Positions 262 to 4,225 are shown, numbered from the stretch's first letter. The stretch: DNA of 40,682 bases from an uncultured Erysipelotrichaceae bacterium (GCA_902786245.1 CADABS010000019.1:1-40682); one strand, 5' to 3'. A program made the numbers and translations. The notes: generated from the sequence alone by a model not told the origin.

Positions 262-2598
262 ATGAAAGAATTATTCCGGAATATTCAGATTATTTATACG
301 GCTGCGCAGAAAGATATCGCGGAACACATAGGCGCATATCTGCAGGAACATGCTTCACAGCTGCGAACTGCTCAGAACGCTGCGGTCATTATTGTGTCCG
401 ATGAAGCAGCTGCCGACCAAGAATGGCAGAAAGAAGTACGTGCGCTTCCTGCATCCATGCGTCTGGTCCCATGCGGAGCGATCGTCAACGCAGATTACAA
501 TGATCCCGAAGTCATCCCGCCGAAGATCGAGGAGCTCAATTTCATCCGGATCGATGAATCCCTGAATGAAAACATTCTCGATTCACTGCTGCTGGATAAA
601 GACTTCTATGAAATCAGAAATGCCGTACAGGTCAATATGAATGCATGGCTCCTTGCCGGTGAGACAGACAGCTTCCTGATTTCCGATTACGGCAAAGCAA
701 AAAAGTATCTGCGTGCCATCGATACAAAACTGACCAATGAGAACGATGAACGCTTCATCGAACAGCTTCATCAGATGAAAGACTATCTGACAGAATCCAG
801 AACATACGCCAGAAAGATCTTTTACCGTACCCTGCGCAGCAGAATCACTGTTGCCCTGCTTGCGGTGATCTTTGTGTTATTTGCCATAGCCGCCTGGTAT
901 CTGATCAATACGATTCAGCGGGCTGCCAGAGAGAGCGCACTGCTCGGGCAGAAAACAACGGAAGCCAAAGCCGCAGAGACATTCATTCTGCTGAGCGACG
1001 GCATTGACAACCCTCTGATCGACGGCTATACCCGCGGTGCCCTGTTCAATCAGATGACCGAAACACTGGACTATTCCTGGACAACGACCCCGACCGGATA
1101 CAACTATAAATACCGGCTGTATGACCCGAAGCTGCTCAATGATGAACGGTATCTCATGACCGTTTCCGAAAACCATGAAATCCTGATCTGGGATACATGG
1201 ACCGGAAAGATCAATGAATCATTTTCTTCCGGGGAAAACGATACAAAAGCATATCATGTCGATGGTGACAACGGCGTGGTCATTGCGGTAAACAGCGAGA
1301 ATGTCATCTACTTCGGCGATGCGGAAGCGGGTCAGTGGCTGACAAACAATGTACAGTATCCGTTTACGGGAAACACGGATATTCATATTCTCAGTGCACC
1401 CGGACAGATCATTATTTACGATGACGCAAATGTCTTCTTCTTTGGAACAGATCCTCTCAGACTTGTTTCCTATATTACTGAAGAAACGATGGCCGGCAGT
1501 ACATATAAAATCCATTCCGTCTTTGTGAATGAAAACGGTCCGGCACTTGCCCATGAAATCAACAATGAAATGTGCTTCTATTACAGAAACGAGAACGGTG
1601 AACTGACCGGATACAATACCGGCACTCCCTGTAAAGAAGACTGTACAGCCGCTGTATATGAAACCTATATGGTATTTGCGGATCCGGAAGGAAACATCAC
1701 CGTACTGGACAAAGAATCAAAGGAATTCTTTACCGTCGGACTGAAACTGCCGGATGTCAGGTTCCTGACCTGTATCAATGACTCGGTATTTGCCTATTAT
1801 GATTCTCTGAAAGGAACCCATCTGTATGATTTCCGTCAGGGAATCGATCTGGGTACGGTATTGAGCGGCTTTGAAGATATATCGTATCTCGGCGCCGGAA
1901 AATATACCATCTTCTGCTATGCGGACGGAGCCTGGCACTGCCAGTACATCGATCATCTTCTGCCTGTAACGGAAATTGATGAAGGCAGTGTCCTGCAGAG
2001 ATTTACGGACACCTCCCCTGCCGGTCAGGAATATATGAAGAATATATCCTATACCGACCAACTTGTACGCTTTACCTTCTGCGTCAACGGAAACGAACAG
2101 AAGTACATTCTGGACGGTGGCCACCGCCGCTATACCGGCGGCGCACTGAGCGATCCGTACAGCCGGGAAGAAAACACACACGTTTTTGATAAACAGCCTC
2201 TTTCATGGAGCGGCGATGTGACTGTCCTGGGTACCATGAGTGACGGTCTGTGTCTTCTGGTCGGAACCGATGACGGACAGTTCCGGGAAATATCCCTGGA
2301 TTATGACGGAACCTGGTATGAGGACACATACCTGCAGCTTCCCTCGCACAGCGCCGTCACGGAAATCATTGAAACAGAAGACTGCTATCTGATCAAAGAC
2401 GCAGCCGGCAATTACTGGCAGGCAGAAATCCGCTGCCGCACCCACAGCGGTGAAGAGAATCTGCTTGACCGGATGAATGAAAAAGTCAGAATGCATGGCT
2501 ATTTCACACAGGAACTTCTGGATTCAGTCAGCGAACAGCTCAAAAAGGACATCCGTATCGGACTGATGCCGGGCGGCGACGGAAAGGAGTGGGAATAA
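262..2598 (+). CDS. Membrane-anchored degenerate-TIR / beta-propeller protein
   Basis: This is a 778-residue protein with three parts. Residues 1-98 read as a shortened TIR fold: a first strand/helix (IQIIYTAAQKDIAEHI), a central strand and helix (AVIIVSDEAAADQEWQKEV), and a fourth strand ending in IPPKIEELNFI. The segment between helix A and strand C, where the BB loop normally sits, is nearly absent. E58, in the W..KE context, falls where TIR NADases carry their catalytic glutamate. Residues 120-150 match the linker seen in TIR-WD40 proteins (A..WLL.G..DSFLISD..KA..YL). One transmembrane helix lies at about 195-217. Residues 285-778 are a degenerate WD-type propeller (for example YLMTVSENHEILIWD). 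The ATG is preceded by AAAGGA. The gene ends one base before the next, a second TIR/propeller gene, so the two are clearly co-expressed. A cytoplasmic N-terminus and extracytoplasmic propeller is one topology; the reverse is possible. The role is unknown; immunity or stress signalling is inference. Confidence 0.75.
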   Translation: MKELFRNIQIIYTAAQKDIAEHIGAYLQEHASQLRTAQNAAVIIVSDEAAADQEWQKEVRALPASMRLVPCGAIVNADYNDPEVIPPKIEELNFIRIDESLNENILDSLLLDKDFYEIRNAVQVNMNAWLLAGETDSFLISDYGKAKKYLRAIDTKLTNENDERFIEQLHQMKDYLTESRTYARKIFYRTLRSRITVALLAVIFVLFAIAAWYLINTIQRAARESALLGQKTTEAKAAETFILLSDGIDNPLIDGYTRGALFNQMTETLDYSWTTTPTGYNYKYRLYDPKLLNDERYLMTVSENHEILIWDTWTGKINESFSSGENDTKAYHVDGDNGVVIAVNSENVIYFGDAEAGQWLTNNVQYPFTGNTDIHILSAPGQIIIYDDANVFFFGTDPLRLVSYITEETMAGSTYKIHSVFVNENGPALAHEINNEMCFYYRNENGELTGYNTGTPCKEDCTAAVYETYMVFADPEGNITVLDKESKEFFTVGLKLPDVRFLTCINDSVFAYYDSLKGTHLYDFRQGIDLGTVLSGFEDISYLGAGKYTIFCYADGAWHCQYIDHLLPVTEIDEGSVLQRFTDTSPAGQEYMKNISYTDQLVRFTFCVNGNEQKYILDGGHRRYTGGALSDPYSREENTHVFDKQPLSWSGDVTVLGTMSDGLCLLVGTDDGQFREISLDYDGTWYEDTYLQLPSHSAVTEIIETEDCYLIKDAAGNYWQAEIRCRTHSGEENLLDRMNEKVRMHGYFTQELLDSVSEQLKKDIRIGLMPGGDGKEWE

Positions 2599-2599
2599 C

Positions 2600-4225
2600 A
2601 TGAACCATATCTTTATTTCCTATTCCCGCAGAGACTCTGCGGCCGTCGGAATCATTGTGGAAAAACTGAGAGAAAAAGGCCTGAATGTATGGCAGGACAT
2701 TTCCGGCAAAGGATCCGGCATTCCGTTTTCCACCAAATGGTTTGCGGCCATTGAAGAAGCCCTGCACAATTCTGCCGGAGCCGTTGTATTCCGTTCTTTA
2801 TACTGGCAGAAATCCGTTCCCTGCCAGAAAGAATACAGATTGATTCAGAATCTCGCGATTCCCTGCTATGAAGCCAATGCCGAACTTCTTCTCTCACAGC
2901 AGATGATCGATGAAACGGTTGATCTGATTCTGTTATGGGCACAGTCGGATGTCTATGGCAATGAACAGAACGGACTGCGCACCTGGCTGCTTTCTTCGGT
3001 CAGTGCCATGCAGAACAGCCGCGGATCATCCGCCGGCATCCCCCGCTACCGGAAAAGAAAAGACGCCGATGACTTCCGTCAGAGACTGCAGAAAAGCAGT
3101 GCACTGGCAGAGGAACTGCATTATGCATCGAACATGCCGCAGCTGTATGCAGGCATTCAGTCATTCCTGAAAAAAGCCCGCAGAATTACTGCCTGGGACA
3201 GAATCAAACGGCCGCTGGCAATTGCCTTTGCGGCAGTCATGATCCTTGGCAGCGTATTGGCCAATGTATATTACAAACGGGAAAAGGACGATGCGGACGC
3301 GCATATCGCCGCATTGAAGAACCTGGACAGAATCACCGATGAAATCCGTTACGATGAACTCCGGGCACTGACCATGATGGCAGAAGATACATCCGATTAC
3401 GGAGAATACTTTGCCCTGCTGTATGAGAAATACACAGATGCCCTGGATACCGTATTCCCCGCCGGCTTCTATCCGGCCGGCACTGCCGAAGCACAAAGAA
3501 TACAGAGTCTGCCTGCCCAGACAGCAGCCGAAGGATATACAATCGAATGTTCCGGTACGCTCGGTCAGATCATTGTCCATCAGGATGCACCGGAAAACAC
3601 CGCAGAAGAGACGGTCAATCTGATGACATCTTCTCCTGTTACGGCATATGCATGTCAGAACGGATATCTTGCGGCCGCATGCGGAAGAGATGCATACCTG
3701 TATGATCTGAATCACGGACTGGACCTGATACCGCTGCGCTGCTGTTACAGAGATATCAGGGACATCCGCTTTGATGAAACCGGAAATATCTGTGCCATTA
3801 CAGAAGCAGGCGATGTCTATGTCTGGAACAATCCCCTCCCTGCAATCCTGAGCACACCGGATCAGAAAACCATTGAATTCATGAAACCGGTCTATACTTC
3901 ACAGGACGCATCCCTGCGCGTCCAGGCAGAACCGGATGGCACCCTGGTTATCACGGACCAGAAACACGACGCCGTCATATATCAATGCGGCCTGATCAGG
4001 GAACCGGTCGAAGGCGTATACCTGGATGAAGAAAAAAACAGGATCTGGGCGAAGGGATACAGCGGCGAATGCTACTGTATCGATGCCTCGCAGATCCTGG
4101 AAAACTATGATCCGGATGATCTTGTTTCTTTAAAGAATACCTATGATGCGCTGGTTCATCAGAAAAGCGATTTCCTGGTGAATGAACTGGGCATTGCCTA
4201 TAACTGGTTTACGGCCGGTCAATGA
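2600..4225 (+). CDS. TIR domain protein with transmembrane segment and degenerate propeller
   Basis: This 541-residue protein opens with an almost canonical TIR domain: IFISYSRRD (4-12), a BB-loop region with WQD (31-33), helix B (WFAAIEEAL), strand C (GAVVFRSLYW) and the CQKEY motif, whose E78 aligns with the catalytic glutamate of TIR NAD-cleaving enzymes. A linker (about 140-200) leads to one transmembrane helix at about 205-223. The remaining 315 residues are mostly beta, with two recognisable WD-like blades (YLAAACGRDAYLYDLNHG and IRDIRFDETGNICAITEAGDVYVWNN). The start follows AAAGGAGTGGGAATAAC, and the gene begins one base after the stop of its partner. The stop codon lies inside the terminator hairpin. 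The family is certain at the TIR level. NADase activity is plausible because the glutamate and BB-loop region are kept, but is not shown. The propeller assignment is weaker than in the first protein. Confidence 0.85.
   Translation: MNHIFISYSRRDSAAVGIIVEKLREKGLNVWQDISGKGSGIPFSTKWFAAIEEALHNSAGAVVFRSLYWQKSVPCQKEYRLIQNLAIPCYEANAELLLSQQMIDETVDLILLWAQSDVYGNEQNGLRTWLLSSVSAMQNSRGSSAGIPRYRKRKDADDFRQRLQKSSALAEELHYASNMPQLYAGIQSFLKKARRITAWDRIKRPLAIAFAAVMILGSVLANVYYKREKDDADAHIAALKNLDRITDEIRYDELRALTMMAEDTSDYGEYFALLYEKYTDALDTVFPAGFYPAGTAEAQRIQSLPAQTAAEGYTIECSGTLGQIIVHQDAPENTAEETVNLMTSSPVTAYACQNGYLAAACGRDAYLYDLNHGLDLIPLRCCYRDIRDIRFDETGNICAITEAGDVYVWNNPLPAILSTPDQKTIEFMKPVYTSQDASLRVQAEPDGTLVITDQKHDAVIYQCGLIREPVEGVYLDEEKNRIWAKGYSGECYCIDASQILENYDPDDLVSLKNTYDALVHQKSDFLVNELGIAYNWFTAGQ

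Follow-up and report, generated by a model that had tools for sequence, protein, structure and literature searches.

What might two adjacent genes for membrane-anchored TIR proteins do together when one of the TIR domains is degenerate? The question is raised by a locus near the start of the window, i.e., the whole stretch of DNA that was analyzed (40,682 nucleotides). According to the original prediction, each gene encodes an N-terminal TIR domain, one transmembrane (TM) helix, and a C-terminal propeller-like region, and the two proteins could form a sensor/effector heterodimer in which one TIR regulates the other.

A two-gene locus for predicted membrane TIR proteins

Gene A (positions 262 to 2598) codes for a 778-amino-acid protein with a probable pseudo-TIR, a helical stalk, a TM helix, and a propeller-like region. 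Gene B (positions 2600 to 4225) codes for a 541-amino-acid protein with a canonical TIR, a helical stalk, a TM helix, and a propeller. Both open reading frames had homologues at nine loci, both are on the plus strand, and a single base lies between them. When the coordinates, the strands, the 1-base gap, and the glutamates at the catalytic positions of A (E58) and B (E78) were rechecked, all of them proved to be exact.

A putative ribosome-binding site (aaagga) was located at positions 249 to 254 on the plus strand, in front of gene A. The putative ribosome-binding site of gene B (aaaggag, positions 2583 to 2589, plus strand) was found within the last codons of gene A, where it forms part of the sequence encoding GGDGKEWE, and it was conserved at the DNA level across loci. 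Thus, A and B are apparently translationally coupled via a ribosome-binding site that lies inside the end of A. The start of the window is also the start of the contig, and the tail of an unrelated gene precedes A. On the 3' side of the pair, the opposite strand carries genes for a CmpB-like membrane protein and an HD-domain protein and a purL-type purine gene, the last of which was assigned by a look at its sequence.

The TIR domain of B retains predicted active-site positions

The TIR domain of B was placed at residues 3 to 93 (positions 2606 to 2878), based on a Pfam TIR_2 match to residues 4 to 84 and on the strands and helices of the model. The TIR_2 match in the window's B protein (8.9e-10, 39.6 bits) was above the curated cut-off of 28 bits, and TIR_2 was matched in 8/8 B homologues, with a best value of 3.2e-13. 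S7, S9, R10, D33, S66, E78, and most of the BB-loop residues were invariant in eight aligned B homologues. The segment that contains D33 and the BB loop, DISGKGSGIPFS (residues 33 to 44; positions 2696 to 2731), was nearly invariant, and the glutamate at the catalytic position, E78 (codon at positions 2831 to 2833), was invariant in all homologues, including the ninth one (G118). B has the sequence hallmarks of TIR NADases, namely the conserved glutamate, the βB aspartate (D33), and the BB loop. The TIR_2 match and the invariant residues confirmed that this domain is nearly canonical, as originally predicted, and B is a putative TIR NADase in which the conserved active-site positions are retained.

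The composite active site of Cat1 is formed by S7-N10, D33, S68, and E74 of one TIR and K121 and Y122 of the other TIR (PMC12162218), and the activity of SpbK depends on the BB loop as well as on a head-to-tail interface (PMC12847820). B retains the TIR positions of the composite active sites of SpbK and Cat1 (PMC12847820, PMC12162218), with the equivalence between Cat1 and B residues being set by motif and spacing rather than by structural superposition. The gating cue is a cyclic nucleotide for Cat1 and a phage portal protein for SpbK, and neither enzyme has a membrane propeller or a pseudo-TIR partner. When the two proteins were compared with PADLOC, the best match of B was SAVED_TIR (2.1e-8), this and similar matches were confined to the TIR part, A had no match, and no system was matched by both proteins.

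The N terminus of A resembles a TIR domain minus one segment

The N terminus of A was modeled with AlphaFold2 using six homologues, and the mean pLDDT was 77 (moderate confidence). The modeled fold (residues 6 to 110; positions 277 to 591) was that of a TIR domain that lacks βB, the BB loop, and αB, and it carries E58, a variable residue at the catalytic position. When the model was compared with PDB chains using VIA-align, the top 50 matches, which aligned at residues 6 to 110, were all TIR domains (Z of 8.5 to 11.5) and included the TIR domain of SARM1 (Z of 11.5; rmsd of 2.2 over 98 residues), a SPARTA TIR (Z of 10.5), and Cat1 (Z of 10.2). Hence, the claim that A begins with a TIR-like domain passed the structural check. 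The original prediction also held that this TIR is shortened and lacks the BB-loop segment, and the models bore this out: the interval between αA (residues 14 to 31) and βC (residues 40 to 45) is 8 residues in A, whereas B spends 32 residues there on βB, the BB loop, and αB. The distant copy of A in the same genome (G000:C2) contains about 25 extra residues at the place where the BB loop is missing, with no BB motif among them; thus, loss of the segment may not be uniform across the family.

Profile searches of the N-terminal halves, which had been proposed for both proteins, succeeded for B with TIR_2 and yielded no Pfam TIR match for A. In addition, TIR domains were ranked weakly (E above 0.1) when the A model was used in a plain Foldseek search. 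These two results are what would be expected if the N terminus of A had a Rossmann-like fold by chance and did not descend from a TIR domain. Against this, the VIA-align matches were exclusively to TIR domains, and a profile comparison with hhalign tied A to B over the TIR, the stalk, and the TM helix (E of 1.6e-5, probability of 79%). The VIA-align matches and the A-B profile comparison support the idea that the N terminus of A is a TIR descendant minus one segment, and we consider a chance fold to be very improbable. Judged by their sequence profiles, A and B are distant paralogues rather than unrelated proteins.

Of the seven A sequences that reach position 58 in the alignment, two have E and two have D there, and Q, A, and M occur once each. 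Therefore, the statement that both proteins keep the catalytic glutamate was correct for the window (E58 and E78) and did not extend to the family, in which the glutamate of A has been lost in most homologues and that of B is invariant. When A was checked for the three hallmarks of TIR NADases, βB with its aspartate and the BB loop were absent and the glutamate was variable. Because E58 is not conserved among A homologues, A is probably a pseudo-TIR that serves as a non-enzymatic partner. These patterns supported a division of labor between a degenerate and an intact TIR more strongly than the original prediction had recognized.

Membrane helix, topology, and propellers

One hydrophobic TM segment was found in every A and B homologue that was tested. 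In the window, hydropathy and flank charge placed this helix at residues 197 to 215 of A (positions 850 to 906), with positive charge on its N-terminal side in the homologues, and at residues 206 to 224 of B (positions 3215 to 3271). Lysine and arginine residues were more abundant on the N-terminal (TIR) side of the helix in nearly all A and B proteins, and the exceptions were those of the divergent L016 copy (4/4 in A and 2/1 in B). Under the positive-inside rule, the excess of lysine and arginine on the TIR side suggests that A and B may be type II membrane proteins with a cytoplasmic TIR and a propeller outside.

The propeller blades of B (about residues 308 to 495; positions 3521 to 4084) were modeled with a pLDDT of about 90, and residues 308 to 413 matched WD40 chains in structure comparisons (Z of 10 to 12). 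Pfam WD40 matches were also present in B homologues. The C-terminal region of A (about residues 285 to 778; positions 1114 to 2595) appeared to be a diverged WD40/propeller-like region, and it yielded only weak WD40 sequence matches (Apaf-1, 2.4e-4; THOC3, 0.0016). Thus, the originally predicted architecture held for the TIR and the TM helix of both proteins and, in the model, for the propeller of B; the propeller of A is a candidate assignment based on weak sequence matches.

An alternative is that the propellers are cytoplasmic, the helix is a mere membrane tether, and the cue that is sensed is intracellular (e.g., a phage protein). WD40-like propellers are usually cytosolic, and the cysteine content of the propellers (0.6 to 3.3%) was nearer to that of cytosolic proteins (1.65%) than to that of one secreted protein (0.3%). 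Cysteine content was similar in the relatives with a TIR, a TM helix, and a DUF5050 domain (TIR-TM-DUF5050), and it does not favor propellers outside. With a single-pass helix between the TIR and the propeller, though, only one of the two domains should be inside, and the positive charge flanks the helix on the side of the TIR. We therefore view cytoplasmic propellers as unlikely.

A and B occur together and have a patchy distribution

The prediction that A and B stay together passed the gene neighborhood check, as A was followed by B in the same order at 9/9 loci. These were the window, a second, divergent copy in the same genome (G000:C2), and G011, G017, G045, G118, L020, L021, and L022. 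Two of the loci are thus from this genome, six are from other gut metagenome-assembled genomes (MAGs) of Bacillota, and one (among L020 to L022) is from a MAG labelled Eggerthellaceae. Gene A is truncated by a contig end in G017 and L020. The pairwise divergences of A and those of B were correlated (r of 0.95, Mantel p of 1e-4).

Among 70 genomes of the genus, profile searches detected the pair in five, and no credible match came from any other genus in the family, order, and phylum samples; the distribution of the pair is therefore patchy. Two apparent A homologues (G041:C43 and G447:C34; profile E of about 1e-4) were rejected after no A-like or B-like protein was found in their ORF lists. 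Matches to B outside the pair covered the TIR domain only, save one short match after the TM helix. A search of viral contigs returned nothing, B did not match any phage sequence, and A did not match any plasmid. When the window locus was compared with possible empty sites, clear homologues of the CmpB neighbor were found in five genomes without an adjacent pair; none of these genomes yielded the gene that lies upstream of A.

The flanking genes were housekeeping-like and varied by locus, except in the close relatives G045 and G118. A PADLOC search of 50 flanking proteins for defense genes returned look-alikes and, at one of the loci, a capP-like protein. Enrichment near defense genes, which the original prediction had proposed as a check, was thus not borne out. 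The idea of a defense island was dropped, as the matches were to SMC, thymidylate kinase, ABC transporters, and an RlmI-like methyltransferase. The capP-like protein (L021:3300-4076), about 3.5 kb upstream of A-B, was the sole neighbor match that was not clearly a housekeeping look-alike.

Proposed function of the pair

In characterized TIR NADases, the active site is built from two copies of one TIR. In the known assemblies, a donor TIR gives the BB loop, the βB aspartate, and the glutamate, and the next TIR offers a face formed by βD, βE, and αE. B could be the catalytic donor half, with its BB loop, D33, and E78. A could act solely as an acceptor, completing or nucleating the assembly of B, because the model of A keeps βD, βE, and αE and the donor set is lost. 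Our preferred reading, to which we assign a probability of roughly 0.45, is that A and B form an obligate heteromeric membrane TIR receptor. The propellers of A and B would respond to a ligand, to damage of the envelope, or to contact with phage, and B would begin to cleave NAD+ once the pair clusters. NAD+ would then likely be depleted or give rise to a signal, and the most plausible purpose would be defense against phage or another antagonist. The patchy spread, the cross-phylum copy, and the pseudo-enzyme partner suggest that the pair is a conflict or sensing module, for which anti-phage defense would be the most likely single role. A more specific version, in which a pseudo-TIR stripped of exactly the donor half partners an enzymatic TIR, outside propellers sense phage or another antagonist, and the pair acts through NAD as an inverted Toll-like pair, is speculative and rather unlikely to hold in full.

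In an acceptor-only role, A would either complete the site of B, as an activator or nucleator, or end a strand of B, as a cap. If it were a cap, the BB-less TIR of A would block growth of the B strand, and a toxic NADase would stay inactive for as long as no trigger had displaced A, much as in sensor-inhibitor or toxin-antitoxin pairs. An inhibitor would fit the order of the genes, with A made before B, and the absence from A of the BB loop that a growing strand needs; activity depends on the assembly of TIRs via this loop (PMC12847820). The acceptor face in the A model fits a positive role equally well, however, and the large sensor-like domain of A exceeds what an antitoxin needs, so inhibition by A seems to us a doubtful reading that still deserves some weight. 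A comparable degree of doubt attaches to the idea that the pair is a surface sensor of ordinary physiology (envelope stress or a host or community ligand), in which the TIR makes an NAD-derived messenger or acts as a scaffold and there is no defense role. Every locus has housekeeping neighbors, and the TIR-TM-DUF5050 genes of G045, G011, and G017 adjoin a small lipoprotein-like gene, as might be expected of such a sensor, but the very patchy spread, the cross-phylum copy, and the two divergent copies in one genome are more like an accessory, defense-type module.

If the heteromeric receptor reading is correct, a co-inherited pair in which one TIR is minus a half-site and the other is complete would offer a natural way to test the composite-site model. 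The pair would also show a membrane-receptor layout for enzymatic bacterial TIRs that could be compared with Toll-like receptor pairs.

Comparison with known systems and other TIR proteins

Like Thoeris, TIR-SAVED, and CBASS TIR systems, the pair has a TIR domain in a prokaryotic gene set, but it has no ThsA/ThsB, SAVED, or cyclase gene and has a membrane receptor layout. SPARTA (TIR-APAZ plus a short Argonaute) is also a two-gene TIR system, and its TIR domains were among the best structure matches of A; unlike SPARTA, the pair has no Argonaute or APAZ, and TIR folds are predicted in both partners. Animal Toll-like receptors, which also have a sensor domain, one membrane helix, and a TIR per chain and act in pairs, are comparable by analogy only. 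In contrast to these receptors, A and B have the TIR first (the opposite order) and a propeller in place of leucine-rich repeats (LRRs), and B is likely to be enzymatic. In the library that was searched for TIR-TM-propeller proteins, DUF5050-TIR proteins, and bacterial TIR-LRR receptors, the A-B pair was not described, which is weak evidence of its absence from the literature.

The TIR-TM-DUF5050 proteins of Bacillota (L090:3135-4607, L091:4367-5863, and L092:2881-4350), whose genomes also carry the A-B pair, resemble A and B in having an N-terminal TIR, one probable TM helix (by sequence), and a C-terminal repeat domain that is thought to be a propeller. They differ in being encoded by a single gene, with a canonical BB-loop TIR, a curated DUF5050 domain, and no degenerate partner. 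These genes adjoin a small lipoprotein-like gene, and a gyrA-like gene is near in L091 and L092. A TIR protein of about 495 amino acids (G045, G118, G011, and G017) was considered for a link with the pair; in the three genomes that were inspected, it has a TIR-TM-DUF5050 gene of its own at a distance from A and B.

An unusual TIR-SecA fusion of 1135 amino acids, encoded in the window's genome (L047:2284-5688, G000:C43), begins with a short TIR-like segment, apparently devoid of a BB loop, which is followed by a canonical TIR; SecA DEAD, P-loop, cross-linking, and wing domains; and a SEC-C motif. Its N-terminal segment was rejected as a relative of A after a profile comparison with A gave no match. 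With the C43 TIR as the query, 24 matches were found in G015, a genome of the same genus (5.2 Mb, 590 contigs, contamination estimate of 10), which is far above the number in its relatives. In G041, two adjacent genes on the minus strand (L029:1-3295) encode a TIR protein and a protein that matches TIR weakly and may contain an AAA/STAND segment.

Because the genus has TIR-TM-LRR as well as TIR-TM-DUF5050 proteins, gut bacteria may harbor a neglected class of membrane TIR receptors. A TIR, a hydrophobic segment, and LRRs (strong in the former and weak in the latter) were observed at L029:6051-8051 and L008:1-992, approximately the inverted layout of a Toll-like receptor. In another family of the same class, a TIR is fused to BspA-type LRR_5 repeats (L045:2107-3768, L045:4882-8520, and L046:3370-7002).
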